DNA from: Bacteroidetes bacterium GWF2_40_14
Lineage (GTDB): Bacteria; Bacteroidota; Bacteroidia; Bacteroidales; UBA932
Direction of reading: 5' to 3'
DNA: 62,166 nucleotides
NCBI GenBank assembly: GCA_001769195.1
Contig: MEOK01000028.1
Coordinates: 1-62,166, forward strand
In this document: positions 22,198-61,912 of the stretch, in pieces
How the letters are laid out: each line of letters starts with the position of its first letter
How positions within the stretch are numbered: the stretch's first letter is position 1
Notes under the pieces: model-generated
The model's database searches: none
Told to the model about the DNA's origin: nothing
What the model saw: only the letters and a program-made list of their open reading frames with translations
Translations under genes and position numbers: made by a program

Positions 22198-22658
22198 GGT
22201 ATATGGGGACGCAAATTGCGTACCCATTCTCATTTATTCCTATTCTTATTTTGCTTCTTTGTTTTATTTATTGTGTATTTGTCTTTCCGGGCCGTGCAAC
22301 GGGCTAACCAAAAATACTAATTATGTGATTTTTTCATTGCATGGTGGGTGGTTGTGATATACGTGCACCAGATTTACCCGCTTCGCTCTCAATTCGCTAA
22401 AAAACAAAAGGCTGAAACCATATATGCCAGTACAAAAGGCTGCAGGTTTCAGCTCTCGTTTTTTCTAACGCTACTTTCGCTTAGCGGGTGCCCAAATCTT
22501 CCTTGCAAGTATATCACAACCACCCACCATGCTATTTTTACACATAATTAGTGTCTGTAACTATCTCATAGCAATGCCCGGAAAGACAAATACACAATCA
22601 ATTTTTGAGAGGCAAAATTCTTTCGAAAATGGGTACACAATGTGCGTCCCCATGTACC
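22198..22658 (-). repeat. Palindromic element family, copy B: about 460-bp nested palindrome
   Basis: The whole trxA-sdaA intergenic region is one nested inverted repeat. From outside in: terminal repeats GGTATATGGGGACG (22198-22211) and its inverted partner ending at 22658; a perfect 22-bp pair at 22271-22292 and 22576-22597; a perfect 12-bp pair at 22316-22327 and 22541-22552; a perfect 24-bp pair at 22339-22362 and 22509-22532; the conserved bulged arms; and a core stem 22410-22419 with 22445-22454 (GGCTGAAACC with GGTTTCAGCT). The right end abuts the sdaA stop codon, and a partial extra copy of the end sequence (CCATGTACCTT) lies at 22659-22670. Nothing coding was found in it. Confidence 0.9.
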
Positions 22659-22669
22659 TTCCATGTACC

Positions 22670-23869
22670 TTATACCTTGCCGACGAGCTCGGCGAGTCCT
22701 CCTGCTGCGGTCTCTTTGTAAATCCGGGGGAGATCGTGTCCCGTACGTTTCATAGCCTCCACCACAGTATCAAATGATACGAGATGTTTTCCGTCTGAAA
22801 GCAGAGCATACATATTAGCGTCCACTGCTCTTGTTGCTCCAAAGGCATTTCTCTCTATACAAGGAATCTGGACGAGCCCGCAAACAGGGTCGCAGGTAAG
22901 GCCAAGAAAATGCTCTATCCCTATTGATGCAGCATACTCTATCTGGGCAGGTGTCCCTCCAAAGAGTTGAACTCCCGCTCCTGCGGCCATGGCACATGCC
23001 GATCCTACTTCTCCCTGACAGCCAACTTCGGCTCCTGAAATTGAGGCGTTTGTCTTTATAATATTACCTATAAGGCCTGCTGTTGCAATTGCTTTTATAA
23101 TACGACTGTCCGAAAAATCATAAAACTTCCTGTTCAGATACAGAAGCCCTGGTAAAACTCCCGATGACCCACAGGTAGGTGCCGTTACAACAATTCCACC
23201 TGATGCATTTTCCTCAGAGACAGCAAGTGCAAATGAAAATGTCATTGATCTGCGCTGCATTGAACCCTGATATCCTTTGGCCTTGATGTAGAACGAAGCT
23301 GCTTTTCTTGAAAGATTCAGACCTCCGGGAAGAACGCCCTCTTTATCCAGTCCTCTCTCAACAGAGTCCGTCATTGCCTTCCATACCTCTGCAAGATAGT
23401 CCCATACATCATTTTCTTCATGAATGTCTACATACTCCCAGAACGTTCTTCCATTTGCTTGACACCACTCCAGGATATCCTTCATTTTGCTGTGCGGATA
23501 TACAGTAGTTCCTGATTTTCTCTCGCCGCTGTCGCTAAGGTCCCCACCTCCAATGCTGAATGTTGTCCAACTCTCCATTGTCTCTCCTTCATTGTCATAA
23601 GATTCAAACCTAAGTCCGTTAGGGTGTTGAGGAAGAAATGTTTCAGGTTCCCATAAAATCTTTGTTCGCTCCTTTCCAAGAACATCCAGTATTGCCTTGT
23701 CTGTCATATGACCCTCCCCTGTTGCTGCCAGGCTACCATAAAGAGTTACCGAAAAAAAAGATGCACCCTTGTTCCTTTCAAGAAACTGTTCCGATGCAAG
23801 CGCAGGAGCCATCGTATGACTGCTGGATGGACCCCGGCCAATTTTAAAAATCTCTTTTATACTTTCCAT
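22670..23869 (-). CDS. sdaA: L-serine ammonia-lyase, single-chain iron-sulfur type
   Basis: A 399-residue enzyme that converts L-serine to pyruvate and ammonia. The N-terminal GRGPSSSHTMAP motif (residues 11-22) and the C-terminal catalytic domain are in one chain. Cysteines for the 4Fe-4S cluster are seen in GCQGEVGSACAM and CDPVCGLVQIPC. The enzyme is oxygen sensitive in other species, consistent with an anaerobe. The ATG begins 5 bp after a TAACTTTG -7 box, so the mRNA is probably leaderless. The stop codon directly borders copy B of the palindromic element. Confidence 0.95.
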   Translation of the reverse strand: MESIKEIFKIGRGPSSSHTMAPALASEQFLERNKGASFFSVTLYGSLAATGEGHMTDKAILDVLGKERTKILWEPETFLPQHPNGLRFESYDNEGETMESWTTFSIGGGDLSDSGERKSGTTVYPHSKMKDILEWCQANGRTFWEYVDIHEENDVWDYLAEVWKAMTDSVERGLDKEGVLPGGLNLSRKAASFYIKAKGYQGSMQRRSMTFSFALAVSEENASGGIVVTAPTCGSSGVLPGLLYLNRKFYDFSDSRIIKAIATAGLIGNIIKTNASISGAEVGCQGEVGSACAMAAGAGVQLFGGTPAQIEYAASIGIEHFLGLTCDPVCGLVQIPCIERNAFGATRAVDANMYALLSDGKHLVSFDTVVEAMKRTGHDLPRIYKETAAGGLAELVGKV

Positions 23870-23874
23870 TCTGC

Positions 23875-23882
23875 AAAGTTAT
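23875..23882 (-). promoter_or_regulatory. -7 box TAACTTTG of sdaA, leaderless arrangement
   Basis: Minus strand TAACTTTG ends 5 bp before the sdaA ATG (23869). A transcription start 4-7 bp after the box would fall on or next to the start codon. Confidence 0.55.
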
Positions 23883-23914
23883 TCGATTGCTAAAAGCTTT
23901 GGCAGAGCTGCCTC

Positions 23915-24208
23915 CTAGATCACCGAATCGGCTTCCCAGACAAATGCCCGCAGGCCTTGTTTTTCTGCTTCTTCGTTATGTTTTCTGAGTTCTGCCAGCA
24001 ATGCTGGCAAAACTTCGGGTTCGACAACAGCCATGGTAACCATGTTTTTTGACGGCCAGGCATGTGAGGAGTAGTGAGGTTCTCCCTTACTACTCCCTCT
24101 ACCCTGAACATCTTCCCATTTGGTGAATCCACGTATGCTGCATTTATCCAGAGCATCAAGCACATTTGAACTGTGTGCCTGATTATATATTATCATTATT
24201 GCTTTCAT
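23915..24208 (-). CDS. PII-like small signalling protein in an RND efflux operon
   Basis: A 97-residue protein with a ferredoxin-like beta-alpha-beta-beta-alpha-beta plan: strand KAIMIIY, helix SNVLDALDKC, strand GFTKWEDVQG, a loop rich in Gly/Ser/His (RGSSKGEPHYSSHAWPSK), strand MVTMAVVE, helix PALLAELRKHNEEAEKQG, strand RAFVWEADSVI. This order and the position of the loop match PII (GlnB-like) proteins, although the modified Tyr and the usual nucleotide motifs are not conserved. A divergent PII group linked to metal-efflux RND genes is known; here the RND partner is drug-type. It lies 30 bp downstream of the permease gene. Role inferred: ligand-dependent control of the pump. Assignment is by pattern only. 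Confidence 0.6.
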   Translation of the reverse strand: MKAIMIIYNQAHSSNVLDALDKCSIRGFTKWEDVQGRGSSKGEPHYSSHAWPSKNMVTMAVVEPEVLPALLAELRKHNEEAEKQGLRAFVWEADSVI

Positions 24209-24238
24209 TCCGTATAATATTTAATTTTTACAAGTATA

Positions 24239-27200
24239 TTAAGCGTGCTTCTTTGCGTGGGCCCTTCTCTTTCTCTTTATATCTCCCACATGGAACGATG
24301 TATAGATTGTAGGAATAACAATCAAAGTAAGAATAGTAGAGATTGAAAGTCCCCCGATTATGGATATACCCATTGGTTGCCATATTTCAGAACCTTCACC
24401 TATACCCATAGCCATTGGAATCATACCCAGAATAGTAGTAAGGGTGGTCATCAGAACCGGTCTCAGACGTGATTTTCCACCTTTAATAACCGATTTCCTT
24501 ACAGTTGCACCTCTCTCCTTGTTCAGATTTATATAGTCAATCAATACAATACCGTTTTTAACGACAATACCTACGAGCATTACTGCACCAATAAGAGCAA
24601 TAAGACTCAATGATGTACCGGTAAGCCAAAGTGCCAGGAAGACTCCGGTAAATGCAAATGGAAGAGAGAACATAATGATGAAAGGATCTCTGAACGACTC
24701 GAACTGAGCAGCCATAACAATATATACCAGCATGACCACTAGCAGAAGCAGGGTAAGCATATCGGAAAACGACTCCTGCTGCTCCTGAACCGAGCCTGAA
24801 ACCTCAACATCCATCAAAGGAGGAAGCGATAATTTATCAACCTCTTTTTGTACATCGGCAGCAATGTCGCCAAGTGCCCTTTTATATACAAAACCCGTCA
24901 CTTTAATAACCCTCTCCCTGTCCTGGTGATCAATTGACGGAGGTGCAAAACCTTCAATGACATCCCCTACTTCCGACAGTCTTACTCCCTTTCCACGGCT
25001 GTTGTAGATTACTATGTTCTTGATATCTTCAATCTCTGTCCTGTATTTCAGTTCATTTTTGACAACAATGTCATATTCCTCTCCATCCTCTCTGAATCTG
25101 CTTGTTATGAGGCCATTTATCCTGTTTCTTACTACAGTGGCAGCCCCGGTCATTGTAAGACCATTCATGGCAAGCTTCTCTCTGTCAAACTCAATCTGCA
25201 ATTGTGGTGTGTAATTCTCCCTGCTGAGCTTAATGTCTCTCAAACCCTCGGTTTTTCTCATGATATTGGCAACCTGATTGGCAACTGTGTCGGCATCTTT
25301 CATGTTGTAACCAAGTACATCCATTTCAAGTGACGTTCCTCCTGAACCAAAGCCCATGTTTGAACCTCCGGGCGTTACTTCAAAACGGTATATCTCCGGA
25401 ATTGCAGCCAGATCCTTTCTCATTTCGTCGGAAATCTCGAAAATATCCCTTTCCCTTTTCGACGCCTTTGTCAGACGTGCCGTATAGGTTATAAGATATG
25501 TACCGGAACTCCTCATAGCCATAAATATGTTGGAACCATCGGACTGTCCGAGCGATGACTGATAGATTTCAATTTCCGGATATTTGTCTTTCCAAAGATT
25601 GTAGAGATATGTATTTAGTTTTCTTGTATGTTCAACCCTTGTTCCAACAGGCAACTCTATAGTAAGACCTATCTGGGCATTATCGGATGCCGGGAAGAAA
25701 TCGGTACCAACCCTGGCCAGAAGGAAAAGACTCCCTATAAACAACATCGCCGCACTTATAATTACCAAGGCCCTGTTTCTCAATGCCCAGGTAAGCAGAT
25801 AAGCATATCCTCTGTCCAATGAATCCAGTGTTCTCTCTATAGGTCCGTAAAGCAAATTGAAGAGTTTGCTTCTCTTGGGATCCTTTGTGAGCAATTTAGA
25901 AGCGAGCATGGGTGTTAGACTAAGTGCAACAATTGCAGAGACTGAGATTACTATGGTGACAATCCATCCTAGTTGTTTGAACATGATCCCGGCAAGTCCT
26001 GTAACCATTGTCAGTGGGAAGAACACTGCAATAATTGTTAGTGTAGAAGCAATAATTGCCACTGCTACCTCATTTGTTGCATAGATGGCAGCATCCTTAG
26101 GCTTGCTACCCCTTTCTATATGCGTCGTTATATTTTCAAGCACCACAATGGCATCATCCACAACCATCCCGATAGCAATTGAAAGAGAACTAAGGGATAT
26201 TATGTTAAGTGTATTACCCGTCACCATCAGATAGATGAACGCAGCTATAAGTGAAACCGGAATGGTAAGAATGATTATAAATGTAGCTCTCCATCTTCCC
26301 AGGAATAACAAAACAACAAGCATTACAAGAATACCCGCAAGAACAACTGTCTCTGTAAGGGAGCTTATACTATCCTTGATAAATTCCGAAGAGTCAAGAA
26401 TCACTTCCAGTTTTACATCCGGAGGAAGTGAGGCCTTTATGTCCGGTAAGGCTTTGTTGATTTTGTCTGCAATGTCAACAACATTTGCTCCTGATTGCTT
26501 CTGAACTACAATCATTGCACCAGTCACACCGTTGGTAACCACCTGGGTAGCTCTCTCTTTAAGAGTATCTTTAACAACTGCAACGTCTTTTATAAATATG
26601 TTCCTTCCCTGATAGCTTCCCAGAATAATGTCATTTATCTGATCGCTCTCCTTGAGTTCGCCATTTACCCTCACCGAATAAGTATCAGATCCTACATCTA
26701 TGCTTCCCGCAGGAATATTGCTGTTTCCGGCAGCGACAAGAGACGCAATCTGTTCATCGGCCATATTGTAAGCCTGCATTTTCTGAGGATCGGTAAGAAT
26801 CTGAATCTCACGCTGAGGTGCCCCGGAAATTGAAGTAGATGCTACCCCGTCAATCCTGTTTAAAGGATTAGCAACCTTTTCCTCAAGAATCTTATAAAGA
26901 CCCTGTGCATTCTGTGAGGTTCTGGCAGAGATGAACATGATAGGCATCATCTCTGTGCTGTATTTGAACACTACAGGCGACTCGGCACCATCCGGAAGGT
27001 AGTTTTTCTGGAAGTCAAGGACCGATCGTATATCGTTTACCGCCTCATCCATATTGGTCCCATATTCAAACTCAATAGTAATAATGGAGACATTATCCTT
27101 TGAATTGGAAGATATTTTCTTAAGATCGGAAACTGTACTGAGCGACGTTTCCAGTCTCTTTGTCAAATTTAACTCAATATCCGCCGCACTCGCACCCGAG

Positions 27201-27352
27201 TATGTTGTCATGACGGTTGCCATGTTAAGCTCTATCTCGGGATAAAGGTCAACCGAGAGCTTCGTATATGAGAATAAACCCAGAACTACAATGGCTATAA
27301 AAATCAGAGCGGTAGTTACCGGTTTCTTTACTGCACTTTCATATAATTTCAT
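24239..27352 (-). CDS. RND efflux pump inner-membrane permease, HAE1 type
   Basis: A 1037-residue AcrB-like transporter that exports hydrophobic compounds using the proton gradient. There are twelve membrane segments with two large periplasmic loops. The proton-relay pair is in TM4 (AIGMVVDDAIVVLENI, Asp-Asp near residue 400), which marks the HAE1 (drug/hydrophobe) class and not the heavy-metal class. The N-terminus (KPVTTALIFIAIVVLGLFSY) is typical. It is encoded with its adaptor (22 bp upstream), TolC partner, a TetR regulator and a downstream PII-like gene. Confidence 0.95.
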   Translation of the reverse strand: MKLYESAVKKPVTTALIFIAIVVLGLFSYTKLSVDLYPEIELNMATVMTTYSGASAADIELNLTKRLETSLSTVSDLKKISSNSKDNVSIITIEFEYGTNMDEAVNDIRSVLDFQKNYLPDGAESPVVFKYSTEMMPIMFISARTSQNAQGLYKILEEKVANPLNRIDGVASTSISGAPQREIQILTDPQKMQAYNMADEQIASLVAAGNSNIPAGSIDVGSDTYSVRVNGELKESDQINDIILGSYQGRNIFIKDVAVVKDTLKERATQVVTNGVTGAMIVVQKQSGANVVDIADKINKALPDIKASLPPDVKLEVILDSSEFIKDSISSLTETVVLAGILVMLVVLLFLGRWRATFIIILTIPVSLIAAFIYLMVTGNTLNIISLSSLSIAIGMVVDDAIVVLENITTHIERGSKPKDAAIYATNEVAVAIIASTLTIIAVFFPLTMVTGLAGIMFKQLGWIVTIVISVSAIVALSLTPMLASKLLTKDPKRSKLFNLLYGPIERTLDSLDRGYAYLLTWALRNRALVIISAAMLFIGSLFLLARVGTDFFPASDNAQIGLTIELPVGTRVEHTRKLNTYLYNLWKDKYPEIEIYQSSLGQSDGSNIFMAMRSSGTYLITYTARLTKASKRERDIFEISDEMRKDLAAIPEIYRFEVTPGGSNMGFGSGGTSLEMDVLGYNMKDADTVANQVANIMRKTEGLRDIKLSRENYTPQLQIEFDREKLAMNGLTMTGAATVVRNRINGLITSRFREDGEEYDIVVKNELKYRTEIEDIKNIVIYNSRGKGVRLSEVGDVIEGFAPPSIDHQDRERVIKVTGFVYKRALGDIAADVQKEVDKLSLPPLMDVEVSGSVQEQQESFSDMLTLLLLVVMLVYIVMAAQFESFRDPFIIMFSLPFAFTGVFLALWLTGTSLSLIALIGAVMLVGIVVKNGIVLIDYINLNKERGATVRKSVIKGGKSRLRPVLMTTLTTILGMIPMAMGIGEGSEIWQPMGISIIGGLSISTILTLIVIPTIYTSFHVGDIKRKRRAHAKKHA

Positions 27353-27373
27353 TCGAAAAATTTTTAATAGTTT

Positions 27374-28396
27374 TTATGACAGGTCCGCACCTGAATCTAC
27401 AACTTTCACCTTTGACTTGTCGCTGAGTCTTGCCTGTCCGGCAACCACAACCTTCTGTCCAGCCTCAAGTCCGCTTCTGACTTCGTAGATAGAACCAACC
27501 CTCTTTCCTAGAATAACCTTAGTATAAGTAACAACATCACCATCCAGTACATATACATACTTGTCATTTGTACCGGCCTGTTTTATAACTGCTTTGTCAG
27601 AAACTACAATTTTCTCTTTTGTACCAAAACTAACTTTTGCGGTTGCATACATGCCAGGTCTTATTTCGTAATTTCCGTTTGCAATGCTCACCTGAGCCTG
27701 GAATGTGCGTGTACCCGGGTCTATGGTAGGGTAGATAAGGCTGACCTTGCCAGGATATGTTTTACCTTCATACACATCTACCTTAATCTGAACAGGTGTT
27801 CCTATTTTCACCTGAGGGAAAAATTCCTCAGTAATGTTAACCAGTATCTTAACCGGTTGTATCTGCATCACAACCAGAATTGGCAATCCAACTGCAAGAT
27901 CGCCATTGTCAAAATTACGTTGTGTTACAACTCCGTCAATAGGAGATAAAAGCTTTGTATTCTTGTCCAGATTGGCGATACTCTGCTCAGCAACAGAAAC
28001 TTGTGTCTTCATCTGATCGTATTGCTGTGCGGCAATTCCACCAGACTTATAAAGGGCCTCAATACGTGAAAGATCTAGCTTCAGGTTTTCAAGCTGAGTC
28101 TTTGCCTGAGAGTAATTGGTGTTCTCCATCTGAACAAGAAGTTGTCCCTTTCTTACCCTGCTGCCAACCTCTGCATAGATCTTCTCTATCCTCTGTGCAG
28201 CTGCACTGGAAATATTATTTTTTACAAACGGCTCTATGTTGCCGGAAAACTCCGTCTCCTGAGGAACCATTTGCTTGCCTACCTCTTCAATCTTGACTAG
28301 TACGTCAGCCGTTGCCGCAGTATCTTTTTGTTTGCCGGAAGAACATGCTCCTAAAAGCAATACGCCCAGAGCGAATAAAAATGTAAATTTTTTCAT
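27374..28396 (-). CDS. RND efflux periplasmic adaptor (membrane fusion) lipoprotein
   Basis: A 340-residue lipoprotein: the signal MKKFTFLFALGVLLLGACSS gives a lipid-modified Cys18. It has a biotinyl-lipoyl-like half (AEVGSRVRKGQLLVQME), an alpha-helical hairpin (about 100-150), the second lipoyl half (LLSPIDGVVTQRNFDNGDLA), then a beta-barrel and membrane-proximal domain. It bridges the permease and TolC partner encoded on either side. Confidence 0.94.
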   Translation of the reverse strand: MKKFTFLFALGVLLLGACSSGKQKDTAATADVLVKIEEVGKQMVPQETEFSGNIEPFVKNNISSAAAQRIEKIYAEVGSRVRKGQLLVQMENTNYSQAKTQLENLKLDLSRIEALYKSGGIAAQQYDQMKTQVSVAEQSIANLDKNTKLLSPIDGVVTQRNFDNGDLAVGLPILVVMQIQPVKILVNITEEFFPQVKIGTPVQIKVDVYEGKTYPGKVSLIYPTIDPGTRTFQAQVSIANGNYEIRPGMYATAKVSFGTKEKIVVSDKAVIKQAGTNDKYVYVLDGDVVTYTKVILGKRVGSIYEVRSGLEAGQKVVVAGQARLSDKSKVKVVDSGADLS

Positions 28397-28410
28397 ATAT
28401 GATTGACTTA

Positions 28411-29763: not shown

Positions 29764-29764
29764 T

Positions 29765-30370: not shown

Positions 30371-30387
30371 TTTTTTCAATTAGGTTG

Positions 30388-30395
30388 CAAATGTA
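30388..30395 (-). promoter_or_regulatory. -7 box TACATTTG of the efflux operon
   Basis: Minus-strand TACATTTG ends 17 bp before ATG 30370. A second possible box, TATTTTTG, lies at 30416-30423. Either could serve; the nearer one would give a leader of about 12 nt. Confidence 0.45.
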
Positions 30396-30400
30396 AACAT

Positions 30401-30430
30401 AGGAAACTTAAAAAACAAAAATAGTTTTCT
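30401..30430. promoter_or_regulatory. Candidate TetR operator (inverted repeat)
   Basis: AGGAAACT (30401-30408) and AGTTTTCT (30423-30430) form an 8-bp inverted repeat with one mismatch and a 14-bp spacer that covers the minus-strand box TATTTTTG (30416-30423). It lies between the divergent tetR and kbl genes, as expected for a TetR-type operator. Inferred, not proven. Confidence 0.35.
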
Positions 30431-30462
30431 GGTTTTTCTTTCACTATTCATTTTTTCCTTGT

Positions 30463-30470: not shown

Positions 30471-30506
30471 CATGAGAACCAATCATTGTTACTAAAAAAC
30501 ATTACT

Positions 30507-37952: not shown

Positions 37953-39608
37953 ATGAAAAAAAATTTTTTAAAAATCCTTACTGTAGCCTTTATTGGTCTT
38001 ACTGCACTCTCTTGCAGCAATCCATCCAAAATGGCTAAAGACGCACAGCTGGTAAGCGTGCAGAACAACCCTAAGGTGCTTGAAGTTATTGCTGACGAGA
38101 TTACTGCAACATACACTATGAGCTTTCCGGAAGGATACTTCCATCCAAAAGCAATACTAGAAGTTGTTCCTGTTTTAGTTTATCAGGGAGGCGAAGTTGC
38201 TGCTCCTGCATTTAAGCTTCAGGGAGAAAAAATAACCGACAACTTTCAGTCGATTCCTCTTGCAGGCGGCAAAGCCAGCAATACTGTAAAGTTTGCATAT
38301 AAACCCGGAATGGAGGCTTCTCATCTGGAAATCAGGGTGGCTGTATGGAACAAGGACAAGAAGATTGATTTTCCTGCTCCTTACAAGCTTGCAGACGGAG
38401 CAAACATTACCTATAAATTGGTGCACACTTCCGGAACTACAGCTCTTACTTCTTACGATTATAAAAAAGTGATTGCTGAGAAAAAAGAGACACAGATTCT
38501 TTATACAATAAACAGTTCAGTTGTTCGTCCAAAAGAACTTACAAAAGCCGAAATCAAAGAATTCGAAAAATTCCTTGCCGACACAGAAGCTGATACCCGC
38601 AGAGAAGTAAAGAGTACAAATATTGTAGCTTACGCATCTCCGGACGGCTCAATGGATATAAACAGCAAGCTTTCTGACAAACGTGGGGAAACTGCAAAAA
38701 GTGCGTTTGACATAATCACAAAAAAGGCTCCGGTAAATGCACCGGTAAATGTCTCAACAATTGCAGAAGACTGGGATGGTTTTCAGGAACTTGTAGCTGC
38801 CTCAACAATTCAGGACAAAGAGCTTATCCTTCGCGTGCTCTCTATGTATAGCGATCCTATGGTACGTGAGAGAGAGATCAAGAATATGTCAAAAGTGTTC
38901 AAAACGCTTGCCGACAAAGTCCTTCCTGAACTTCGCAGAGCAAGATTCATTGCCAATGTGGACTACTCTAACTATAATGACGAGGAGCTTGTTGAGCTTA
39001 CAAAGACTAACATCGAGATCATGGATGTTGAGGCTCTTTTATACTCTGCTACTTTAGTTAAAGACTTTGATGCAAAAGTGAAGATCTATACAAAAGCCGG
39101 TGAGAAGTTCAAGGACGACCGTGCATACAACAACCTTGTAGCAACATATCTTGACAATGGCAAACTTCCGGAAGCTAAGATTGCACTGGCCAAGATTGGC
39201 AACAAAACATCCAAATATTACTACAACAATGCAGGTATCATTGCTCTAAGAGACAACAATCTTAAAGGAGCATCTGAAATGTTCAAAAAATCCGATCTTC
39301 CTGTTTCCAGACAAAATCTTGCAATTATTGATATTCTGGAAGGCAGGTACAACGACGCTGTTGCAAAACTTGCAGGAACAGGAGACGACAATGAAGGGAT
39401 AGCTTACATTCTTACAAACCAGCTTGACAAAGCCTCAAAGGCCATTACTCATATGTGTCCACACGCTGCTTACATGCGCGCCGTGATTGCTGCCCGTCAG
39501 GGTAACATGACCGAAGTTGCAAAACAACTGGATATCGTTTACAGTAAGAGTGAAGCTTTGAAACTGCGTTCACAAAAAGATATAGAGTTCGCAAAGTTCC
39601 GTGAATAG
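37953..39608 (+). CDS. TPR/OmpA-like lipoprotein, conserved in Bacteroidales
   Basis: A 551-residue lipoprotein: signal KILTVAFIGLTALSCS gives Cys near residue 20. The first half is beta-rich. The centre has an OmpA-like motif (VAYASPDGSMDINSKLSDKR, about residues 225-245) as seen in peptidoglycan-binding proteins. The C-terminal half (about 340-530) is helical with TPR-like pairs. ATG 37953 follows the promoter box; an upstream in-frame start would place coding sequence ahead of it. The layout suggests an outer-membrane/peptidoglycan scaffold, but the exact role is unknown. The stop TAG lies within a partial palindromic-element end. Confidence 0.8.
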   Translation: MKKNFLKILTVAFIGLTALSCSNPSKMAKDAQLVSVQNNPKVLEVIADEITATYTMSFPEGYFHPKAILEVVPVLVYQGGEVAAPAFKLQGEKITDNFQSIPLAGGKASNTVKFAYKPGMEASHLEIRVAVWNKDKKIDFPAPYKLADGANITYKLVHTSGTTALTSYDYKKVIAEKKETQILYTINSSVVRPKELTKAEIKEFEKFLADTEADTRREVKSTNIVAYASPDGSMDINSKLSDKRGETAKSAFDIITKKAPVNAPVNVSTIAEDWDGFQELVAASTIQDKELILRVLSMYSDPMVREREIKNMSKVFKTLADKVLPELRRARFIANVDYSNYNDEELVELTKTNIEIMDVEALLYSATLVKDFDAKVKIYTKAGEKFKDDRAYNNLVATYLDNGKLPEAKIALAKIGNKTSKYYYNNAGIIALRDNNLKGASEMFKKSDLPVSRQNLAIIDILEGRYNDAVAKLAGTGDDNEGIAYILTNQLDKASKAITHMCPHAAYMRAVIAARQGNMTEVAKQLDIVYSKSEALKLRSQKDIEFAKFRE

Positions 39609-39640
39609 TGTACAGGGACGTATAGGGTATAACCCGTATA
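39606..39640 (+). repeat. Partial end of the palindromic element family (copy F)
   Basis: TAGTGTACAGGGACGTATAG (39606-39625) resembles the terminal repeat of copies C and D, and its first three bases are the stop codon of the upstream gene. It continues into a short hairpin (ATAGGGT with ACCCGTAT), but no inner arms follow. It reads as a solo end or decayed copy. Confidence 0.55.
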
Positions 39641-44545: not shown

Positions 44546-44889
44546 TAGGGTACATGGGGATGCATAATGTGCTAATGTGCTAATGTGCTAATGTGCTAAT
44601 GTGCTAATGTGTTAATGTGTTAATGTGCTAATGTGTTAATGTGCTAATGTGCTAATGTGTTAAGGTGCGGGATTTTAAGATACTTGCCAGGAGGATTTGG
44701 GCACCCACTTAAGGAGCGGAGTGTTAAGAAAAATAAGAACGGAAATTGGCAGCTGTTACGTACTCGTAAACTATCAATTTCCTTTATTTTTTAACGTAGC
44801 AACACAAAGTGGGTAAATCCGGGGCACGTATCAGAAAATTCCGCCCCTTACCGGTAAACAGTGTACACAATATGTGGCCCCATTTACAC
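44546..44889 (+). repeat. Palindromic element family, copy C
   Basis: It fills the whole space between two convergent genes. Left end TAGGGTACATGGGG starts at 44546, the base after the upstream stop codon. The right end, read inverted as TAAGTGTAAATGGGG, begins with the lepA stop codon (44890-44892). Inner arms: left 44679-44709 (GATAC, GGATTT, bulge GGGC, ACCCACT), right 44808-44832 (AGTGGGT, AAATCC, GTATC). Core stem: GTTAAGAAAAATAA (44723-44736) with TTTATTTTTTAAC (44783-44795), and GGAAATTG (44741-44748) with CAATTTCC (44775-44782). It contains an octanucleotide repeat and no gene. Confidence 0.9.
44565..44668 (+). repeat. Octanucleotide tandem repeat TAATGTGY x 13
   Basis: Twelve perfect 8-bp units TAATGTGC or TAATGTGT plus one degenerate unit (TAAGGTGC) run without interruption inside the left half of copy C. 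The eighth base alternates C/T. The unit resembles the ATAATGTGC bases at the element end just before it (44564-44572), so it probably grew from the terminal repeat by slippage. Copy number is likely to vary between strains. Confidence 0.95.
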
Positions 44890-55341: not shown

Positions 55342-55392
55342 GTTAATTTATTGATTTTATATTCGTTATTGTTTCTTCATCTATAGGGGTAT

Positions 55393-55400
55393 CAAAATTA
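55393..55400 (-). promoter_or_regulatory. -7 box TAATTTTG of the EF-G2-lolD-trmN6 unit
   Basis: A minus-strand TAnnTTTG match about 50 bp upstream of the EF-G2 ATG (55341), just downstream of the AraC-like gene. Confidence 0.45.
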
Positions 55401-55411
55401 GCAAAAAAAAC

Positions 55412-55720
55412 TTAACGGACAACACCTTCAAACTCTCTTTCCATTTCTGCATGTGAGCTAAATCCTGAATATTTCCACAATTCCATGTAGGGAGTTCCCT
55501 TCTTTAACAACCCCGTTGCATGCTGAATCCTGTACATACCAATTACCTGGGTCAGTTTTATCCCTAGACTTTCATAAAGCAACCTGTCCACATCGCGTTT
55601 TTTAACATTCAGAAGACCGGCAATGTTCCGGTTTGAAATTTCTTTGAAAAGATAAAGTTGCTCAACCTCCATTAATACTAAAAGTTGTTCAACAGATTTT
55701 TGGTTCCCATGTGTATTCAT
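55412..55720 (-). CDS. Stand-alone AraC-type helix-turn-helix protein
   Basis: A 102-residue protein that is mostly an AraC DNA-binding domain: first HTH SNRNIAGLLNVKKRDVDRLL, then YESLGIKLTQVIGMYRIQHA, and second HTH LLKKGTPYMELWKYSGFSSH. No ligand domain is present; full AraC proteins are about 280 aa. It is divergent from the XRE gene across a 188-bp region with inverted repeats. Confidence 0.75.
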   Translation of the reverse strand: MNTHGNQKSVEQLLVLMEVEQLYLFKEISNRNIAGLLNVKKRDVDRLLYESLGIKLTQVIGMYRIQHATGLLKKGTPYMELWKYSGFSSHAEMEREFEGVVR

Positions 55721-55821
55721 AACTATTCATTTTTTCAAATTTATGCCAACGCTTGTTAAAAAAGAAGCCATTTATTGTTATTTGTCTTTTTCTTAAATTC
55801 TTTTGTTTGTTTCTGCATTTT

Positions 55822-55889
55822 TGTAACACATATAACATGTTTTAATTGTTTTTATAACATATGTTACATGTTGTTTGTCTGACCAAACA
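55822..55889. promoter_or_regulatory. Operator-like inverted repeats between AraC-like and XRE genes
   Basis: Two related blocks, TGTAACACATATAACATGTT (55822-55841) and ATAACATATGTTACATGTTG (55854-55873), share ATAACAT and ACATGTT; the second holds the perfect palindrome AACATATGTT. Next, TGTTTG-N6-CAAACA (55872-55889) is a 6-bp inverted repeat whose TTTG (55874-55877) is the -33 box of the XRE promoter. These are plausible binding sites for one or both divergent regulators. Confidence 0.55.
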
Positions 55890-55903
55890 TTAATTTATAT
55901 TTG
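55874..55903 (+). promoter_or_regulatory. Promoter of the XRE gene, leaderless arrangement
   Basis: TTTG (55874-55877), 18-bp spacer, TATATTTG (55896-55903), then ATG at 55909, 5 bp after the box. One of the cleanest full promoters in the window. Confidence 0.7.
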
Positions 55904-55908
55904 TTTTA

Positions 55909-56310
55909 ATGGAAAACAGGCTTATCAAATTAAAAATTCAGAATCTTCGTAAGACGTTGGGATATACACAAGAGAGTATGGCCAGCAAAATTGGTATGTC
56001 TACTAATTCATATAGTCAGATAGAGCGTGGTAAAACCGTACTTGTGAGCAACAGATTGTCTGATATCGCCAAGGCTCTCAATACAACCCCCGAGGAGCTT
56101 CTCTTGGGTTATGCGCCAAAAGAAGACCTGACAGATAAAATTGCAGCCGTAGAAAGCTTTTACAAAGAGAAAGTTGCAAAAATGGAGTCAGAAAATAAAA
56201 TCGCACGGGTTGAGCTGGAGGCGGAAATACAGCGTCTAAAAGCCACTCTTGAGTCGAAGGATAGCATAATAGGTGTTCTTAAAGAGAGTCTTAACAGATA
56301 TAACTTATAG
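55909..56310 (+). CDS. XRE-family regulator with C-terminal coiled coil
   Basis: A 133-residue protein. The N-terminal helix-turn-helix (IQNLRKTLGYTQESMASKIG then MSTNSYSQIERGKT, about 10-45) is of the XRE/Cro type. A coiled coil follows (about 77-128, KVAKMESENKIARVELEAEI). It has no peptidase domain. It probably dimerises through the coil and controls its own promoter, whose -33 box lies in an inverted repeat. It is followed 49 bp later by rnhB. Confidence 0.85.
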   Translation: MENRLIKLKIQNLRKTLGYTQESMASKIGMSTNSYSQIERGKTVLVSNRLSDIAKALNTTPEELLLGYAPKEDLTDKIAAVESFYKEKVAKMESENKIARVELEAEIQRLKATLESKDSIIGVLKESLNRYNL

Positions 56311-56359
56311 GTTAGATTTACTATCTTGCAGTAAATTTCCATTCTAAGAATTCCTCCCC

Positions 56360-56950
56360 ATGAAAAAAGAGGTCTGCCTCGCTCCTTATCTTAATTCAGA
56401 AGTTATTGAAGCCGGATGCGACGAAGCCGGCAGAGGATGTCTGGCAGGAGCTGTTTTTGCCGCCGCAGTAATTCTTCCAAAAGATTTTTATCATCCCCTG
56501 CTTAACGATTCAAAACAGATTTGTGCCAGAGATAGAAACCTGTTAAGACCTGTCATAGAGAAAAATGCAATAGCGTGGGCTGTTGCATCTGTAGACAATG
56601 AGGAGATAGACGGGATAAATATTTTAAAAGCTTCCATAAAGGCAATGCATCTTGCCCTGAATAAACTGGCTGTAAGACCTGAGTTCATACTGGTAGACGG
56701 GAACAGATTTTATAATTATCCGGATATTCCTCACTCTTGTATAATAAAGGGTGATTCCTTATTTGCATCTATTGCGGCAGCTTCTGTTCTGGCAAAGACA
56801 CACAGAGATGAATATATGCTCTCTATAGCACAGGAATTTCCGTTATATGGATGGGATAAAAACATGGCATATCCAACCAAAGCTCATCGTGAGGCAATTG
56901 AAAAACACGGAGCATGCAGATACCACAGACTATCTTATAAATTGCTATAA
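56360..56950 (+). CDS. rnhB: Ribonuclease HII
   Basis: A 196-residue cytosolic nuclease that removes ribonucleotides and RNA primers from RNA:DNA hybrids. The motif GCDEAGRGCLAG (Asp21, Glu22) and SIAAASVLAKTHRDEYM are characteristic, and the length is normal. It converges with the anti-sigma-like gene (7 bp apart). Confidence 0.96.
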   Translation: MKKEVCLAPYLNSEVIEAGCDEAGRGCLAGAVFAAAVILPKDFYHPLLNDSKQICARDRNLLRPVIEKNAIAWAVASVDNEEIDGINILKASIKAMHLALNKLAVRPEFILVDGNRFYNYPDIPHSCIIKGDSLFASIAAASVLAKTHRDEYMLSIAQEFPLYGWDKNMAYPTKAHREAIEKHGACRYHRLSYKLL

Positions 56951-56957
56951 CGTAAAA

Positions 56958-57290
56958 TTATTTTTCTTCGATGGCAAATTTGCCGACAGCAAAAAGACTG
57001 GCACCCATAAATACAACAGCAACAATTACCTCGGGCCTAATTGAACTCAATCCCTCAAAGAGCGAACCCATTGATCCCAAACCAATTATAAGAGAGCTGT
57101 ACCCACCAAGTATTATGAATAATAAGAGACCGATCAATGCAAAAACCGATATAATCAATCTTGACCTGTCTACCCTTGGTGCAGGGGCAGGAATACAATC
57201 GAGATGAGCGAAAAGCCTTTCACTGAATCCGTCGTCTGCGATGGTTTGCCTGTGATCCTTAAAAAACCTGTTTATATTTTCATCTTTCAT
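56958..57290 (-). CDS. Membrane protein next to ECF sigma factor (DUF5056-like, candidate anti-sigma)
   Basis: A 110-residue protein started at ATG 57290. The N-terminal 45 residues are polar and helical (FFKDHRQTIADDGFSERLFA), followed by two hydrophobic segments (about 47-72 and 86-104). In Bacteroidota such proteins overlap an ECF sigma gene, as here (ATGAAAGATGA, 11-bp overlap), and are proposed anti-sigma factors. No zinc motif is present. Confidence 0.7.
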   Translation of the reverse strand: MKDENINRFFKDHRQTIADDGFSERLFAHLDCIPAPAPRVDRSRLIISVFALIGLLLFIILGGYSSLIIGLGSMGSLFEGLSSIRPEVIVAVVFMGASLFAVGKFAIEEK

Positions 57291-57774
57291 ATCCAATTGA
57301 TTTTAAATGTTCCGACATATGTATCTTAGCTCTTGAGATGTGCGATTTTACCGTATTCAAAGGTATGTCGGTAATTTTAGAAACATCTTTAAGACTTTTG
57401 TCTTCCATATAAAAAAGCAGAATAATTAATCTTTCTTTCTCGTTAAGTTTTGCAAGAGCCATATATAGCTCCTGATTCTGGTATTTATGGTCGGTTGTCT
57501 CATGCGAAGTTAGTATTTTATCTTCAATCTGAACAGAGCTGTATCTCTGGCTTACTCTTTTGTGGTCACAGTAACAGTTATATGCAATTCTGAACAGCCA
57601 TGTGGAAAATTTTGAGAGTCCGTTAAATGAGTTAAGATTGAGATATGCCTTAATAAAGGCCTCCTGAGCTATGTCGTCACTTAAAGCAGAATCACCGTTG
57701 CAAAGGTTTAACAAGAACCGCCGGAGCGGTTCCTGATTGTTTAATACCTGCTGTTCAAACTCTGTTCTGCTCAC
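57280..57774 (-). CDS. ECF-type RNA polymerase sigma factor
   Basis: A 164-residue sigma factor. Region 2: DSALSDDIAQEAFIKAYLNL and FSTWLFRIAYNCYCDHKR; region 4: LNEKERLIILLFYMEDKSLK with helix-turn-helix ITDIPLNTVKSHISRAK. It lies 3 bp downstream of a small membrane protein gene and overlaps its putative anti-sigma gene. Confidence 0.93.
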   Translation of the reverse strand: MSRTEFEQQVLNNQEPLRRFLLNLCNGDSALSDDIAQEAFIKAYLNLNSFNGLSKFSTWLFRIAYNCYCDHKRVSQRYSSVQIEDKILTSHETTDHKYQNQELYMALAKLNEKERLIILLFYMEDKSLKDVSKITDIPLNTVKSHISRAKIHMSEHLKSIGYER

Positions 57775-57777
57775 TAG

Positions 57778-58131
57778 CTATTTTTCAGTTTTATTTTTGT
57801 TGATCAGATAGGCAATAAGTTGCCCTATACCTATAAACAAAGGGATACATCCGAATGCTGCAAACTTGAATCCTCCAAAGAAGAAGTAGAGTGCCAGAAA
57901 AAGTCCTATACCAATTCCAATTGATACCAGTGCACTTGTCAAAGGATCAGATTTTTTAGAACTTTTCTCTTCTCTGGTAAAAAGATCCGGAGATAAATCT
58001 TTTCCATGTTCTATTGCTTTTGCAATAAGTTCGTTTCTTGATTTTTCTTTAAAAGCCTTTGATAAAAAGACTATTAAAATAATAAGAACTGCTGTTAAAA
58101 AGGGGACTATGATTCCCAATACTGCTTCCAT
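57778..58131 (-). CDS. Small membrane protein (DUF6249-like) in sigma operon
   Basis: A 117-residue protein with one N-terminal membrane helix (about 5-25, IIVPFLTAVLIILIVFL), a polar stretch (KEKSRNELIAKAIEHGKDLS), then two helices (about 66-84 and 89-110). This plan and its place upstream of an ECF sigma/anti-sigma pair match a family I know as DUF6249. Function unknown; possibly part of the signal input to the sigma factor. Confidence 0.65.
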   Translation of the reverse strand: MEAVLGIIVPFLTAVLIILIVFLSKAFKEKSRNELIAKAIEHGKDLSPDLFTREEKSSKKSDPLTSALVSIGIGIGLFLALYFFFGGFKFAAFGCIPLFIGIGQLIAYLINKNKTEK

Positions 58132-58143
58132 AATTTTATTGTT

Positions 58144-59304
58144 TTAATCTGTTTGCCTATTTGACTGAAAATCGTAAAGAAAAGTTGCAGATTCAAACGA
58201 AATTCTTTCCAAATATTTTTTTGCCCCTTTCATAGATTTGTTTCTGTCACTCTCAATATCTGAGACAGCAAATACCTTTTCAATCCCCGCTGCGGACAAT
58301 TGTCTTTCATTTAACTGGTTCACTCCGCAATATGCCCATAACCGCTTTCCATGTTTCCTTGCTATTTGAGTTATCCCATCAATCAGTTTTCCAGATATGC
58401 TCTGCCCGTCTATAGAACCCTCTCCGGTAATTATAAGGTCCGATTCTTTTATAATATTTTCAAGATTTGAGAATTCGGAGAGCACCTTCCATCCCGGGAC
58501 AAGTTCAGCACCCAAAAATCCTACTAGAGCAAATCCAACTCCTCCAGCTGCTCCGGCACCAGGCTGGTTTGAGTAAGTTTTCCCAAGATACTCTTCACAA
58601 ATAGTTGCATAGTTTTGCATTTCATTCTCCATCTCCTCAAGCAGATTTTCTCCGGCTCCTTTCTGCGGTCCGTAAACCATTGTTGCCCCACGCTCTCCTA
58701 AAAGAGGATTGTTTACATCGCTGGCTACCATAAAACGGACATTTTTCAAACTGTGGGTTACATTTGTTCCATCTATTTTCTTAATTTGTCCCGGAAATAT
58801 TGTCTCATTTCCTTTATAATCATAAAACCTGTAGCCCAAGGCTCTAAGCATTCCCATTCCACCATCGTTGGTGGCACTTCCACCAATACCTATTACAATA
58901 TCCTTTGCACAAGAACCCTCTATTGCCGCCAGAATCATCTGGCCAAGTCCGTATGTGCTTGTTTTATGAGGATCGTACTCGTTCTCGTTGAGAAGTTGCA
59001 GTCCGCAGCACTTTGCCATCTCAATAAATGCCTTATCTCTTATAAGCAGATAAGGTGCACGGACGGGCCTTAAAAGTGGGTCACAAACCTCTGTATATAT
59101 GAGCTCTCCCTTTTTGGATTTCTTTATAACATCTATTGTCCCCTCTCCGCCGTCGGCCATGGGAAAAATTTGTATATAATGATTTATACCGTGTCCGAAG
59201 GACCCCTGGAAAAGCCCTTTTCTGATACATTCTGCTGCTTCTTTTGCAGTAAGGCTCCCCTTAAACTTGTCTGTGACAATAAGAATTTTGAGCTCTTCTG
59301 CCAT
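58144..59304 (-). CDS. Glycerate kinase (GlxK/GarK type)
   Basis: A 386-residue kinase that phosphorylates D-glycerate to 2-phosphoglycerate. The N-terminal TDKFKGSLTAKEAAECI and PMADGGEGTIDVI motifs and the glycine-rich IGIGGSATNDGGMGMLRALG block are diagnostic. It is followed by the small membrane protein (12 bp) and the sigma pair. With gph, serine deaminase and Kbl it fits serine/glycerate/glycolate metabolism, though the grouping is loose. Confidence 0.93.
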   Translation of the reverse strand: MAEELKILIVTDKFKGSLTAKEAAECIRKGLFQGSFGHGINHYIQIFPMADGGEGTIDVIKKSKKGELIYTEVCDPLLRPVRAPYLLIRDKAFIEMAKCCGLQLLNENEYDPHKTSTYGLGQMILAAIEGSCAKDIVIGIGGSATNDGGMGMLRALGYRFYDYKGNETIFPGQIKKIDGTNVTHSLKNVRFMVASDVNNPLLGERGATMVYGPQKGAGENLLEEMENEMQNYATICEEYLGKTYSNQPGAGAAGGVGFALVGFLGAELVPGWKVLSEFSNLENIIKESDLIITGEGSIDGQSISGKLIDGITQIARKHGKRLWAYCGVNQLNERQLSAAGIEKVFAVSDIESDRNKSMKGAKKYLERISFESATFLYDFQSNRQTD

Positions 59305-59311
59305 TTTTTTC

Positions 59312-59319
59312 TATTTTTG
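59312..59319 (+). promoter_or_regulatory. -7 box TATTTTTG of the S46 peptidase gene
   Basis: A TAnnTTTG match 26 bp upstream of ATG 59346. Confidence 0.5.
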
Positions 59320-59345
59320 TTAAAATTATAGAATATTTAAATACA

Positions 59346-61493
59346 ATGAAAAAAATCTGCTTATTAATTTTATCTGCTTTAGTGTTTTCTATCAGTCCTG
59401 TAAGGGCAGACGAGGGAATGTGGCTGTTGCCTCTTATTGAAAAACTCAATAGTAAAAAAATGTCTGAACTGGGTCTCAAACTTACTGCTAAGGACATATA
59501 TAATGTAAACAATTCAAGTTTGAAGGATGCCGTTGTACAGTTTGGAGGCGGATGTACAGGAGAAATCGTCTCTAAAGAGGGGCTCTTGCTCACAAATCAC
59601 CACTGCGGATATGGAGCCATTCAAAAACTGAGTACTGTTGAGCATGACTATCTTCAGGATGGATACTGGGCAATGAACCGTCAGCAGGAACTTCCTTCGG
59701 CCGGCTTGTCTGTTACATTTCTGGAGAGCTTCCGGGAGGTTACAAATGAGGTTGTCGGTGCTATCGAAGGTGCAGCAACACCTGCCGACAAACAAAAGGC
59801 ATTTGAAGCCATAATTAAGGATCTGACATCAAAAGCAGTTGGAGACAATAAATATCTGCAGGCAAAAGTAACATCTATGTATGGCGAGAATGCATACTAT
59901 CTGATAGTCAGCAAGACTTACACCGACATCCGTTTTGTGGGCGCTCCCCCTTCATCAATCGGTAAGTTTGGCGCAGACACAGACAACTGGATGTGGCCAC
60001 GTCATACCGGAGACTTCTCAATGTTCAGGGTTTACGCCGACAAAAACAACAATCCGGCTCCTTATTCACCGGATAACCAGCCATATGTTCCTAAGAAATC
60101 GCTGACTATCTCTCTTAAAGGAGTTGAACAGAACGATTTTGCAATGATTCTGGGTTATCCCGGCCGCACAAGTCGTTTCATGACCTCTTCTGAGGTGAAG
60201 CAGACAAGCGATGTTTCAAATGCCATCACCATCTATGCCCGTGGTATCCGTCAGGATGTGCTGATGGAAGACATGCTTGCCGACCCTAAGGTCAGGCTCC
60301 AATATGCCAGCAAATACTCTGGTTCTTCAAATTTCTGGAAAAAAGCCATAGGGATGAACGAGACGTTTAAAAAGCTGAACGTTCAGGAACGCAGGGCACA
60401 GGAGGAGAAAGAGTTTACTGCATGGGTGAATGCAGATCCTAACCGTGTTGCAAAATACGGAACCGCTCTTGGCAATATAAATAAGGCAATCGCAGACCGC
60501 GAGGAGGCACTTTATCTTTATAAATATCTTACAGAAACACTTGCCAACATAGAGATTGCCTCTGTTGCAAATCATTATATAGGTGTAGTTGAAGCATTTA
60601 ACAAGGGAGACAACGCAGCAGCACTTGGTATGGCTAAGTCTCTTGAGGGAAGGATAGACAACTTCTTCATAAACTACTCTGCCGGAACCGACAGAAAGGT
60701 GGCAAAGGCTCTCATTAAAGTATTCCAGGACAAAGTAAAGAAAAGTGACCTTCCTTCTTTCTACAGTATCATTTACAATGACTACTCAGGGAACATTGAT
60801 GCTTATGTGGACAATCTGTTCGACAAATCTGTTTTTACTTCTAAGGAGAAAATTGTTGCGGCTCTTACTGCCGGTAAGGATGCTATTGCAAACGATCCTG
60901 CCCTGGCTCTTGGAAAAAGCATCTTTGACATGATGCCTAAACTGCAGGCAGCTCTTGCAAAATATAATGGGTTGTATGCAAAAGGGAACAAAGATTATAT
61001 TGCCGGCCAGCTTGAGATGAAGAAAGGAATGGCAATGTATCCCGATGCAAATTCAACAATGCGTCTGAGCTATGGCAAAATTCTGAATTACTCTCCTAAG
61101 GATGCCATCCTTTATGAACACATTACAACTCTAAACGGAGTTATGGAGAAAGAGGATCCAAACAATTGGGAATTTGTAGTTCCTGCCAGACTTAAAGAGT
61201 TGTACAAAGCAAAGGATTATGGTATGTATGCAATGAAAAACGGCGAACTGCCAGTAGCTTTCCTCAGCAATAACGACATCACCGGCGGTAACTCCGGCAG
61301 CCCCGTTCTGAATGCCAAAGGAGAACTTCTCGGAATTGCATTTGACGGCAACTGGGAGGCAATGAGCGGAGACATTATTTTCGAGCCTACTCTCCAAAGA
61401 ACCATCAGTGTAGACATCCGCTACGTCCTCTTCATTATGGATAAGTTCGGTGGTGCAGGGTATCTGCTTAAAGAGATGAATATCGCCAAATAG
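59346..61493 (+). CDS. S46 dipeptidyl-peptidase, DPP7 type
   Basis: A 715-residue exported serine peptidase that removes dipeptides from the N-terminus of oligopeptides in the periplasm, important for amino-acid-fermenting Bacteroidales. Signal peptide KKICLLILSALVFSISPVRA. Catalytic His in TNHHCGYG (85-86), Asp in the DTDNWMWPRHTGDF region, Ser650 in GGNSGSP. The specificity residue in FDGNWE is Gly668: DPP7 has Gly (hydrophobic/aliphatic P1) and DPP11 has Arg (acidic P1), so this is DPP7-like. Its TAG stop is the first three bases of palindromic copy D. Confidence 0.92.
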   Translation: MKKICLLILSALVFSISPVRADEGMWLLPLIEKLNSKKMSELGLKLTAKDIYNVNNSSLKDAVVQFGGGCTGEIVSKEGLLLTNHHCGYGAIQKLSTVEHDYLQDGYWAMNRQQELPSAGLSVTFLESFREVTNEVVGAIEGAATPADKQKAFEAIIKDLTSKAVGDNKYLQAKVTSMYGENAYYLIVSKTYTDIRFVGAPPSSIGKFGADTDNWMWPRHTGDFSMFRVYADKNNNPAPYSPDNQPYVPKKSLTISLKGVEQNDFAMILGYPGRTSRFMTSSEVKQTSDVSNAITIYARGIRQDVLMEDMLADPKVRLQYASKYSGSSNFWKKAIGMNETFKKLNVQERRAQEEKEFTAWVNADPNRVAKYGTALGNINKAIADREEALYLYKYLTETLANIEIASVANHYIGVVEAFNKGDNAAALGMAKSLEGRIDNFFINYSAGTDRKVAKALIKVFQDKVKKSDLPSFYSIIYNDYSGNIDAYVDNLFDKSVFTSKEKIVAALTAGKDAIANDPALALGKSIFDMMPKLQAALAKYNGLYAKGNKDYIAGQLEMKKGMAMYPDANSTMRLSYGKILNYSPKDAILYEHITTLNGVMEKEDPNNWEFVVPARLKELYKAKDYGMYAMKNGELPVAFLSNNDITGGNSGSPVLNAKGELLGIAFDGNWEAMSGDIIFEPTLQRTISVDIRYVLFIMDKFGGAGYLLKEMNIAK

Positions 61494-61760
61494 GGTATAC
61501 GGGGACATATACAGTGTGCCTGTTTAACTAGCAAGTAAGGGATTTTGAGATGCGTATCCCGGCTTTACCCATTTAACGTTCATTCCACTAAAAAACAGAG
61601 GCAGAAACCAAGATTGTGCTTATGCATATAGCTACAGGTTTCTGCTTCCTGTTTTTCATACGCTTCATTCACTGAGTGGGTGCCCAAAGCCTCCTGATAA
61701 GCATCGAAAAATCCCTTACTTCTCATATTTGGGTACACTGTATACGTCCCTGTGTACCTA
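61491..61760 (-). repeat. Palindromic element family, copy D
   Basis: Ends TAGGGTATACGGGGACATA (61491-61509) and, inverted, TAGGTACACAGGGACGTATA (ending at 61760). Inner arms pair 61549-61571 (GATGCGTATCCCGGCTTTACCCA) with 61677-61705, leaving the GGGC bulge on one side. GGCTTT pairs with AAAGCC where copy C has GGATTT/AAATCC. Core stem: CAGAGGCAGAAACC (61595-61608) with GGTTTCTGCTTCCTG (61638-61652) flanked by A- and T-runs. A 74-codon frame on the minus strand (61580-61804) is made of this repeat and is not called a gene. Confidence 0.9.
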
Positions 61761-61865
61761 AGCTGATAAGGTCTTACCGGTGTATGATCCTCAATTATGA
61801 ACATTCCCTACCTTAACGATAACATTGGAACTCCTGAAATTCAGCAATAGTTGTCAAGTCTTTAG

Positions 61866-61912
61866 GTAGAGGGTAAAGCCGGGACACGTATCGGAAAATC
61901 CCGCACCTTACC
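61866..61912 (+). repeat. Partial palindromic element (copy E, right arm only)
   Basis: The stretch GAGGGTAAAGCCGGGACACG followed by TATCGGAAAATCCCGCACCTTACC matches the right inner and outer arm of copy C (44811-44852) and is close to A (241-261). The left half, core hairpin and terminal repeat are missing. It lies about 105 bp after copy D. Confidence 0.8.

Follow-up and report, generated by a model that had tools for sequence, protein, structure and literature searches.

A bulged palindromic core with covarying stems and varying outer arms, dispersed between genes of Bacteroidetes bacterium GWF2_40_14

Compensatory change within a stem commonly counts as proof that an RNA has a function. 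The window analysed here, which is the entire 62,166-bp contig C28 of a 3.36-Mb genome (G000, 42 contigs), carries long palindromes between its genes, and such changes had been pointed out in their stems by a reading of the letters alone (hereafter the sequence-only reading). This observation raises two questions. First, what is the unit that recurs at these sites, and where else does it occur? Second, is the complementarity of its arms kept by selection on a fold, or is it a product of the copying of hairpins?

The palindromes of the window and the spread of their core

The palindromes B, C and D are long and far beyond chance expectation in their single-stranded DNA folds compared with shuffled sequences. 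Element B (22198–22658, minus strand) is a whole nested palindrome of 461 bp. As single-stranded DNA it folds at −119.4 kcal/mol (z = −16.2, with 0 of 100 shuffles as good), and its middle arms at 22266–22327 and 22541–22602 form an inverted repeat that is 79% complementary. Element C (44549–44887, plus strand) fills the gap between the convergent stop codons of an MG2-domain gene and lepA, and its fold is the weakest of the three (−45.8 kcal/mol, z = −3.0, 0 of 100 shuffles as good). Element D (61494–61758, minus strand), directly after the TAG stop codon of a peptidase S46 gene (59346–61493), folds at −59.4 kcal/mol (z = −9.3, 0 of 200 shuffles as good). Twelve tandem 8-nt units TAATGTG[CT] (44565–44660, plus strand) fill the left arm of C; this tandem repeat was considered as a mobile part and rejected, as it occurs at many core-free sites. 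On re-reading, the sequence-only reading proved correct in its stems, its one-sided GGGC bulge, its orientations and the base changes it cites.

Three smaller loci had been assigned to the same family. Positions 1–261 had been taken as one element, A. Only part of this stretch belongs to the element: the core begins at position 147, and positions 1–146 belong to a group II intron, being the 5′ end of a minus-strand copy that entered this core; a tandem copy of 60 nt lies at the contig edge. The core remainder (147–261, plus strand) lies beside the junction at 146/147, and the covariance model described below matches 117–261 with 72 bits. The proposed partial copy E is a truncated right arm, identical at 48 of 51 positions to the right arm of the second copy in L003; its coordinates are corrected to 61868–61918 (plus strand). 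F (39606–39640, plus strand, after a stop codon) is at best a weak, decayed remnant of the short repeat discussed below, as judged by eye, since it is absent at up to 3 mismatches and gave no alignment above a 15-nt match.

A covariance model (R1) was built from an alignment (A1) of 19 core copies, 17 from G000 and two from a relative, G014, which we picked from a pattern-match list. It scores the cores of B (22358–22501, minus strand), C (44691–44832, plus strand) and D (61549–61693, minus strand) at 132.5, 126.7 and 134.5 bits, respectively. The own genome has 34 matches, among which one repeats another on the opposite strand, two have a deleted apex and some are partial or weak. Another 10 were found in three of the 24 other genus members (five in G017, four in G014 and one in G013), and a deep search of six further members gave none; the core is present in at least 4 of the 25 genus genomes. 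Over the 398 genomes of the family, with seven candidates scored per genome and all counts being lower bounds, at least five genomes from two of 25 genera have matches. The genome from the other genus, G090, has four weak matches (best E 1.9e-7) of a similar plan beside a conserved flank, which may be homologous to the core. A strict core pattern, run against named genomes of 84,980 species, matched one contig (L200, Bacteroidetes bacterium isolate CTSoil_029), in a scan that is no census, since some true copies (e.g. L106) do not fit the pattern and the nearest genomes were possibly excluded. The same pattern had 0 matches in viral contigs, and blastn matched nothing with the core region of B among phages or with that of C among plasmids. 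The element had been called undescribed, and this holds in the literature searched by title and abstract, with most subscription papers outside that search, as well as against Rfam, which had been named as a possible source of a contrary match: there were 0 matches for the whole window at gathering thresholds and 0 for five element loci at E ≤ 1.

Type 1 elements, B, C and D among them, end on the outside in a short repeat of 27 nt (GGTACAYGGGGACG... / GGTACAYGGGGACGCAYATTGTGTACC), seen at the left (22198–22224, plus strand) and right (22632–22658, minus strand) ends of B and at the right end of C (44862–44887, minus strand). It contains GACG and often follows TAG. With up to 3 mismatches it occurs in 37 places, compared with 0 for a reversed-pattern control. 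About half of these places have no core nearby; some of them adjoin other terminators or come immediately after a TAG stop codon. The one outward-facing pair around a gene encloses a ferritin gene. The short repeat is independent of the core. Hence, what had been described as one nested element bounded by a terminal repeat keeps its conserved core, whereas the whole is a composite of that core, an independent dispersed repeat and outer arms that vary.

MITEs and foldback elements are non-coding, dispersed and palindromic and have no enzyme of their own, and the present elements resemble them in each of these points. If GGTACAYGGGGACG were the terminal inverted repeat of a MITE moved by a classical transposase, its inverted placement at both ends of B, C, D and other type 1 copies would be accounted for. 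We consider this very unlikely: besides the short repeats away from any core, other cores have different outer ends, so that the constant terminal inverted repeats of such elements were not found, and at two sites flanking host DNA makes up the arms (see below). The insertion site of C, the one site compared, shows no clear target duplication against G017 and G010, possibly TAG. The two convergent stop codons are 344 nt apart in G000, and about 7 nt and 11 nt apart in G017 and G010, respectively, by eye; a base-by-base reading of such empty sites is difficult because the relatives are only about 80% identical in genes.

Anatomy and covariation of the core

The core is a bulged hairpin of about 145 nt with a conserved tip loop, of which dozens of dispersed copies lie between genes. 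Its plan was read from 28 full copies chosen from 57 R1 matches, leaving out one locus present in duplicate, copies that were truncated, cut by the intron or deleted in the apex, opposite-strand self-matches, weak matches and the four of G090. These 28 are not all independent, since in some cases two species share one insertion (L103/L094, L101/L106). From the outside in, an outer stem that differs between groups is followed by a four-base stem such as TGCA/TGCA, TGCC/GGCA, TGTT/AACA or TATC/GATA. Next comes an asymmetric loop with an AGGA-like left side (4 nt in 22 copies, 5 nt in four and 3 nt in two) opposite GG on the right (GG in 25 of 28). Inside this loop lie a six-base variable stem, a left bulge and the stem ACCCRCT/AGYGGGT. 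The bulge is one-sided in all 28 copies and never on the right; it has 4 nt in 26 copies, mostly GGGC or GGGT and once TGGC, and is GGG in the other two. Innermost are further inner stems, a stem of an A-run and a T-run, a variable stem and a loop near GCAGCT..GCATAA.

The compensatory changes first seen in a few copies persist over the 19 copies of A1. With the structure predicted by RNAalifold, 94.2% of 655 cells pair, compared with 82.3% after shuffling, and two-sided changes are found in 21 of 35 pairs (12.2 in shuffles) and in 77 cells (20.4 in shuffles). The covariation score is 0.362 against 0.149. None of 500 shuffles was as high in any of these four measures; a weaker one, the number of further pair types, gave 40 against 35.0, with 20 of 500 shuffles as high. 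The shuffles did not keep the relatedness among copies. When the partner is slid by 1–3 columns, pairing falls to 36–49%, a comparison that favours the real structure as it was derived from the same 19 sequences. Three named outer stems, segmented by hand, are 98.5, 94.6 and 95.5% paired within copies, compared with 92.8, 78.7 and 76.7% when the right arms are dealt among copies, and all 2000 deals fell below the observed values; for the outermost stem the best of three offsets was taken per copy, which favours pairing.

Could the fold be that of a structured RNA, a riboswitch or sRNA, made from one strand? The strong covariation and the conserved tip loop would suit such an RNA, and in the core alignment 22 of the 655 cells are G-U compared with 12 A-C, a slight excess, with 10 of the 22 in two A-run columns. 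In the outer stems, in contrast, 453 of 476 cells are Watson-Crick, 6 are G-U and 4 are A-C. Since G-U is this rare, it looks as if pairing is maintained in the DNA itself or on both strands, and not in RNA of one strand. The elements lie in both orientations relative to genes, half of 22 copies between convergent ones, and Rfam had no match in the window at gathering thresholds or at the five loci at E ≤ 1. A one-strand RNA, which the sequence-only reading had offered, is therefore disfavoured, and we regard it as highly improbable.

That reading had also concluded that the fold is under selection or is recognised by an enzyme. The fold is conserved and covarying; however, covariation alone is no proof of selection, since template switching can make and repair stems. 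The chief alternative to a selected fold is homogenisation by template switching, which is taken up below together with the outer arms.

Insertion sites, the group II intron and the outer arms

Mechanical ORFs flank 22 copies on both sides; these pairs are convergent at 11 copies, codirectional at 8 and divergent at 3, and the other 6 of 28 have no ORF on one side of the examined stretch. The convergent excess has a binomial p of 1.5e-5 at a baseline of 0.12 and of 0.01 at a baseline of 0.25, the convergent-pair baseline of about 7/58 having been counted by eye from the window gene list. All neighbours here are mechanical ORFs, and the left neighbour of B is a 249-bp ORF 27 nt from the core.

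The core is also entered by the resident group II intron, which we take to be of class IIC. Its 5′ sequence GTGTGCCCTGCATGAGCAGAGCACACC stands in the window at A and at four other core junctions, on contigs C2, C18, C23 and C9, and a further 5′ intron end is truncated at the end of contig C4. All six 5′ junctions lie right behind the core T-run, three on each strand, and four 3′ junctions were also found in cores (C14, C20, C21 and C7). The C9 copy (L153) matches Rfam RF02001 (group-II-D1D4-3) at E 6.3e-22, 165 nt into the intron. As the loci were fetched for the core, no preference of the intron for cores can be drawn from these counts.

Integron attC sites are imperfect inverted repeats with variable stems, and in this the core resembles them, whereas its copies are single and scattered between mechanical ORFs, with no cassette array seen. 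PMC4424553 names intrinsic terminators and attC as the insertion sites of class C introns; PMC12350094 is a further source on class C introns and terminators. The terminators that receive them resemble the core in having a stem and then a T-run with the intron right behind it; the core differs from them, as far as that text describes them, in serving on both strands and in being part of an element that is conserved, repeated and extended by long outer arms (PMC4424553). Since the intron lands behind a T-run on either strand, the core looks, from its sequence, like an intrinsic terminator on both strands. A stem-then-T-run arrangement was found: the inner stem is followed by TTTGTTTTTT, which is paired with the A-run. 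A scan for consensus terminators allowed loops of up to 8, too short for most of this core tip, and its totals did not exceed those of shuffles; B had one weak 5-pair match, C and D none.

The outer arms differ between groups of copies and pair within nearly every copy. Their duplex energy has a mean of −31.5 kcal/mol within copies, compared with −12.6 kcal/mol between copies, and 21 of 28 copies pair more strongly than the 5th percentile (−27.0) of the between-copy energies; two, L162 and L042, are clearly unpaired. The flanks were aligned with strict gaps, since lenient gaps made the between-copy scores too high for use.

Where does such an arm come from? The DUF4295 gene (PF14128) offers a site with and without the element. 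In G000 it has no core and is followed by one terminator and then by an SRP54-type GTPase gene, presumably FtsY. In G014 (L222), the last 14 nt of DUF4295 and its terminator recur inverted beyond the core; this part alone scores 56, and the best of 1000 dinucleotide shuffles reached 33. Because the coding tail of DUF4295 is conserved in relatives, the original arm can be told from the copy. The DUF4295 locus of G017 (L098/L223) has the same plan by eye; in L098 a further complete element is nested in the apex of the first element, whose G014 counterpart is uninterrupted. The GTPase gene starts within about 330 nt of the DUF4295 end at 15 of 20 placeable loci, G000 included (12 by pattern and three by eye). 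It is absent at the two core-bearing loci of G014 and G017 and likewise at three core-free ones (L224, L235 and L236), so that either the element or another event may have separated the two genes in G014 and G017. The second site lies where the RNA polymerase beta′ gene (PF04998) ends. At G017 L100 its terminator GAGAGCCGG..CCGGCTTTTTT stands twice, mirrored around the core; the score is 46, compared with at most 35 among 1000 shuffles and with 12 to 25 when three other terminators are used; in G000 and G016 the gene ends in a single hairpin by eye. At these two compared sites the arms are, to judge from their sequences, mirror copies of the neighbouring host DNA. The arms that are common to many copies (types 1–3) could be the element's own, which counts against a host origin.

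Mirrored flanks at two loci are also what would be expected if there were no mobile unit at all, and ordinary terminator hairpins had been lengthened and homogenised by template switching during replication, which would give the covariation as well. Template switching is described, in the accessible part of PMC8794818, as creating and maintaining hairpins and stems, and a bulge-free palindrome of the right arm, seen at L052:979–1014, agrees with it. Homogenisation, however, should erase a one-sided bulge, and the bulge is kept in every one of the 28 copies; moreover, a 145-nt core with the same loop and bulges at dozens of loci requires a copying step. We therefore think it improbable that template switching acted without a mobile core.

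Known systems, mechanism and meaning

The sequence-only reading had compared the palindromes with REP sequences moved by Y1 transposases. There is some ground for such a comparison: REP, REPIN and BIME repeats with their RAYT enzymes are likewise intergenic palindromes, bulged hairpins and inverted pairs, in the accessible parts of PMC3733652 and PMC6006769. Y1_Tnp (PF01797) has 50 matches in 22 of the 25 genus genomes, and G000 has three Y1 genes, one of them just under the Pfam cut-off. Inverted repeats of at least 14 bp lie within 320 nt of the Y1 gene at 21 of 32 loci and at none of the other 11, counted without a shuffle control, and at 12 of the 21 they lie on both sides of the gene by coordinates. 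Bacteroidetes Y1 genes of subclass 2.6 are described as flanked by atypical structures (Quentin et al., PMC6006769, in part), and by analogy the pairs found here may be like theirs. The core, on the other hand, was found at 0 of 32 Y1 loci at E ≤ 10 (32 of the 50 matches, about 1.5 kb on each side), and 23 of 24 Y1-flanking repeats do not align to cores above all of 40 shuffles, the exception, L129b, being marginal (27 vs 25). A likeness of the tip loop to the inside of the Y1-flanking repeat at L032 was dropped, with 10 of 40 shuffles as good. Compared with the REP/RAYT repeats of these sources, as far as they describe them, the elements are far longer and multi-level, their arms differ between copy groups, no Y1 gene was found beside a core and no constant GTAG/CGTC-type foot was seen at it. 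A Y1-linked origin is thus left unsupported, and we hold it to be unlikely.

The reading we prefer, with about even confidence, is that of a non-coding, genus-restricted, dispersed foldback repeat between genes, with a conserved core and with arms built by fold-back copying. The core would arrive in a gap between genes, as the comparison of the empty with the filled site suggests, and would fold as a hairpin in single-stranded DNA. Replication would then copy back along the same strand and lay down the inverted flank on the other side, which is consistent with the product seen at two loci. Since arm types are common to copies, finished palindromes probably spread with their arms as well. Once in place, the core would end transcription on both strands, and the group II intron would use it as a terminator. 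Counting against this explanation, no enzyme that moves the core was found.

A further, rather doubtful proposal may be called the foldback seed: the single-stranded core hairpin would enter gaps, and copying primed by the hairpin would mirror whatever adjoins it. The copying might be done by a DNA polymerase or by a reverse transcriptase, for example that of the resident group II intron. The fold-back copying of the preferred reading has precedents in the template switching that makes stems (PMC8794818) and in the inverted duplications centred on a palindrome in E. coli lacking SbcCD and RecA (PMC3315005, in part). In E. coli, as in the present elements, the flank is duplicated in inverted form around a palindrome; the difference is that the E. 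coli events, as that part of the source presents them, are large chromosome duplications at a 246-bp palindrome, whereas the mirrored stretches here are of about 100 bp and inherited in place. If the foldback-seed proposal were true, only the tip would be the element and the body of each copy would be built from host DNA; such a tip could seed rearrangements and receive further cores in its apex.

What, then, does the locus offer for the question of fold selection against hairpin copying? The two can be separated here because some 30 copies combine covarying stems, little G-U, partly host-derived arms and one-sided bulges that are kept, which makes them a natural set for telling one from the other. 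Long palindromes, of 265 to 461 bp in the window, have multiplied between bacterial genes, and their core is a target that a group II intron has entered on both strands.

Tandem arrays, the short repeat and an intron

The left arm of element C contains an 8-nt tandem repeat, TAATGTGC (window positions 44565-44660), which is also found at loci L006-L009, L012, L013, L015, L017, L018, L020, L022, L024, L029 and L030. Arrays of it are numerous in the contig's own genome, some with and some without the 27-nt dispersed short repeat. In L008, L013 and L029, an array of 7-nt GGCAATA-like units is present as well. At L184:1783-2441, a ferritin gene (PF00210) has the short repeat on either side, both copies facing outward.

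A group II intron that is present in several copies begins, by its 5′ end, in window positions 1-146 at the contig edge, where a tandem copy of 60 nt accompanies it. Besides the window copy, at least five cores (the conserved bulged hairpins) are split by the same intron, every one close to a contig end.

Other palindromes

Palindrome pairs enclose Y1 transposase genes of the genus at L032, L125, L128-L131, L141-L145 and L147, and their sequence is gene-specific in most cases. A hairpin resembling the core occurs in four copies with conserved flank (L095, L108, L109 and L110) in G090, a genome from another genus of the same family; in L109, an HU-family gene (PF18291) lies upstream of it.

Altered forms of the core

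Two apex-deleted mini-forms (L161:1976-2029 and L161:2133-2191) retain the GGGT bulge and the ACCCACT stem and lack the A-run/T-run hairpin. At L052:979-1014, the core right arm is joined to its own mirror copy as a palindrome without a bulge, which would be the product expected of template switching without constraint.
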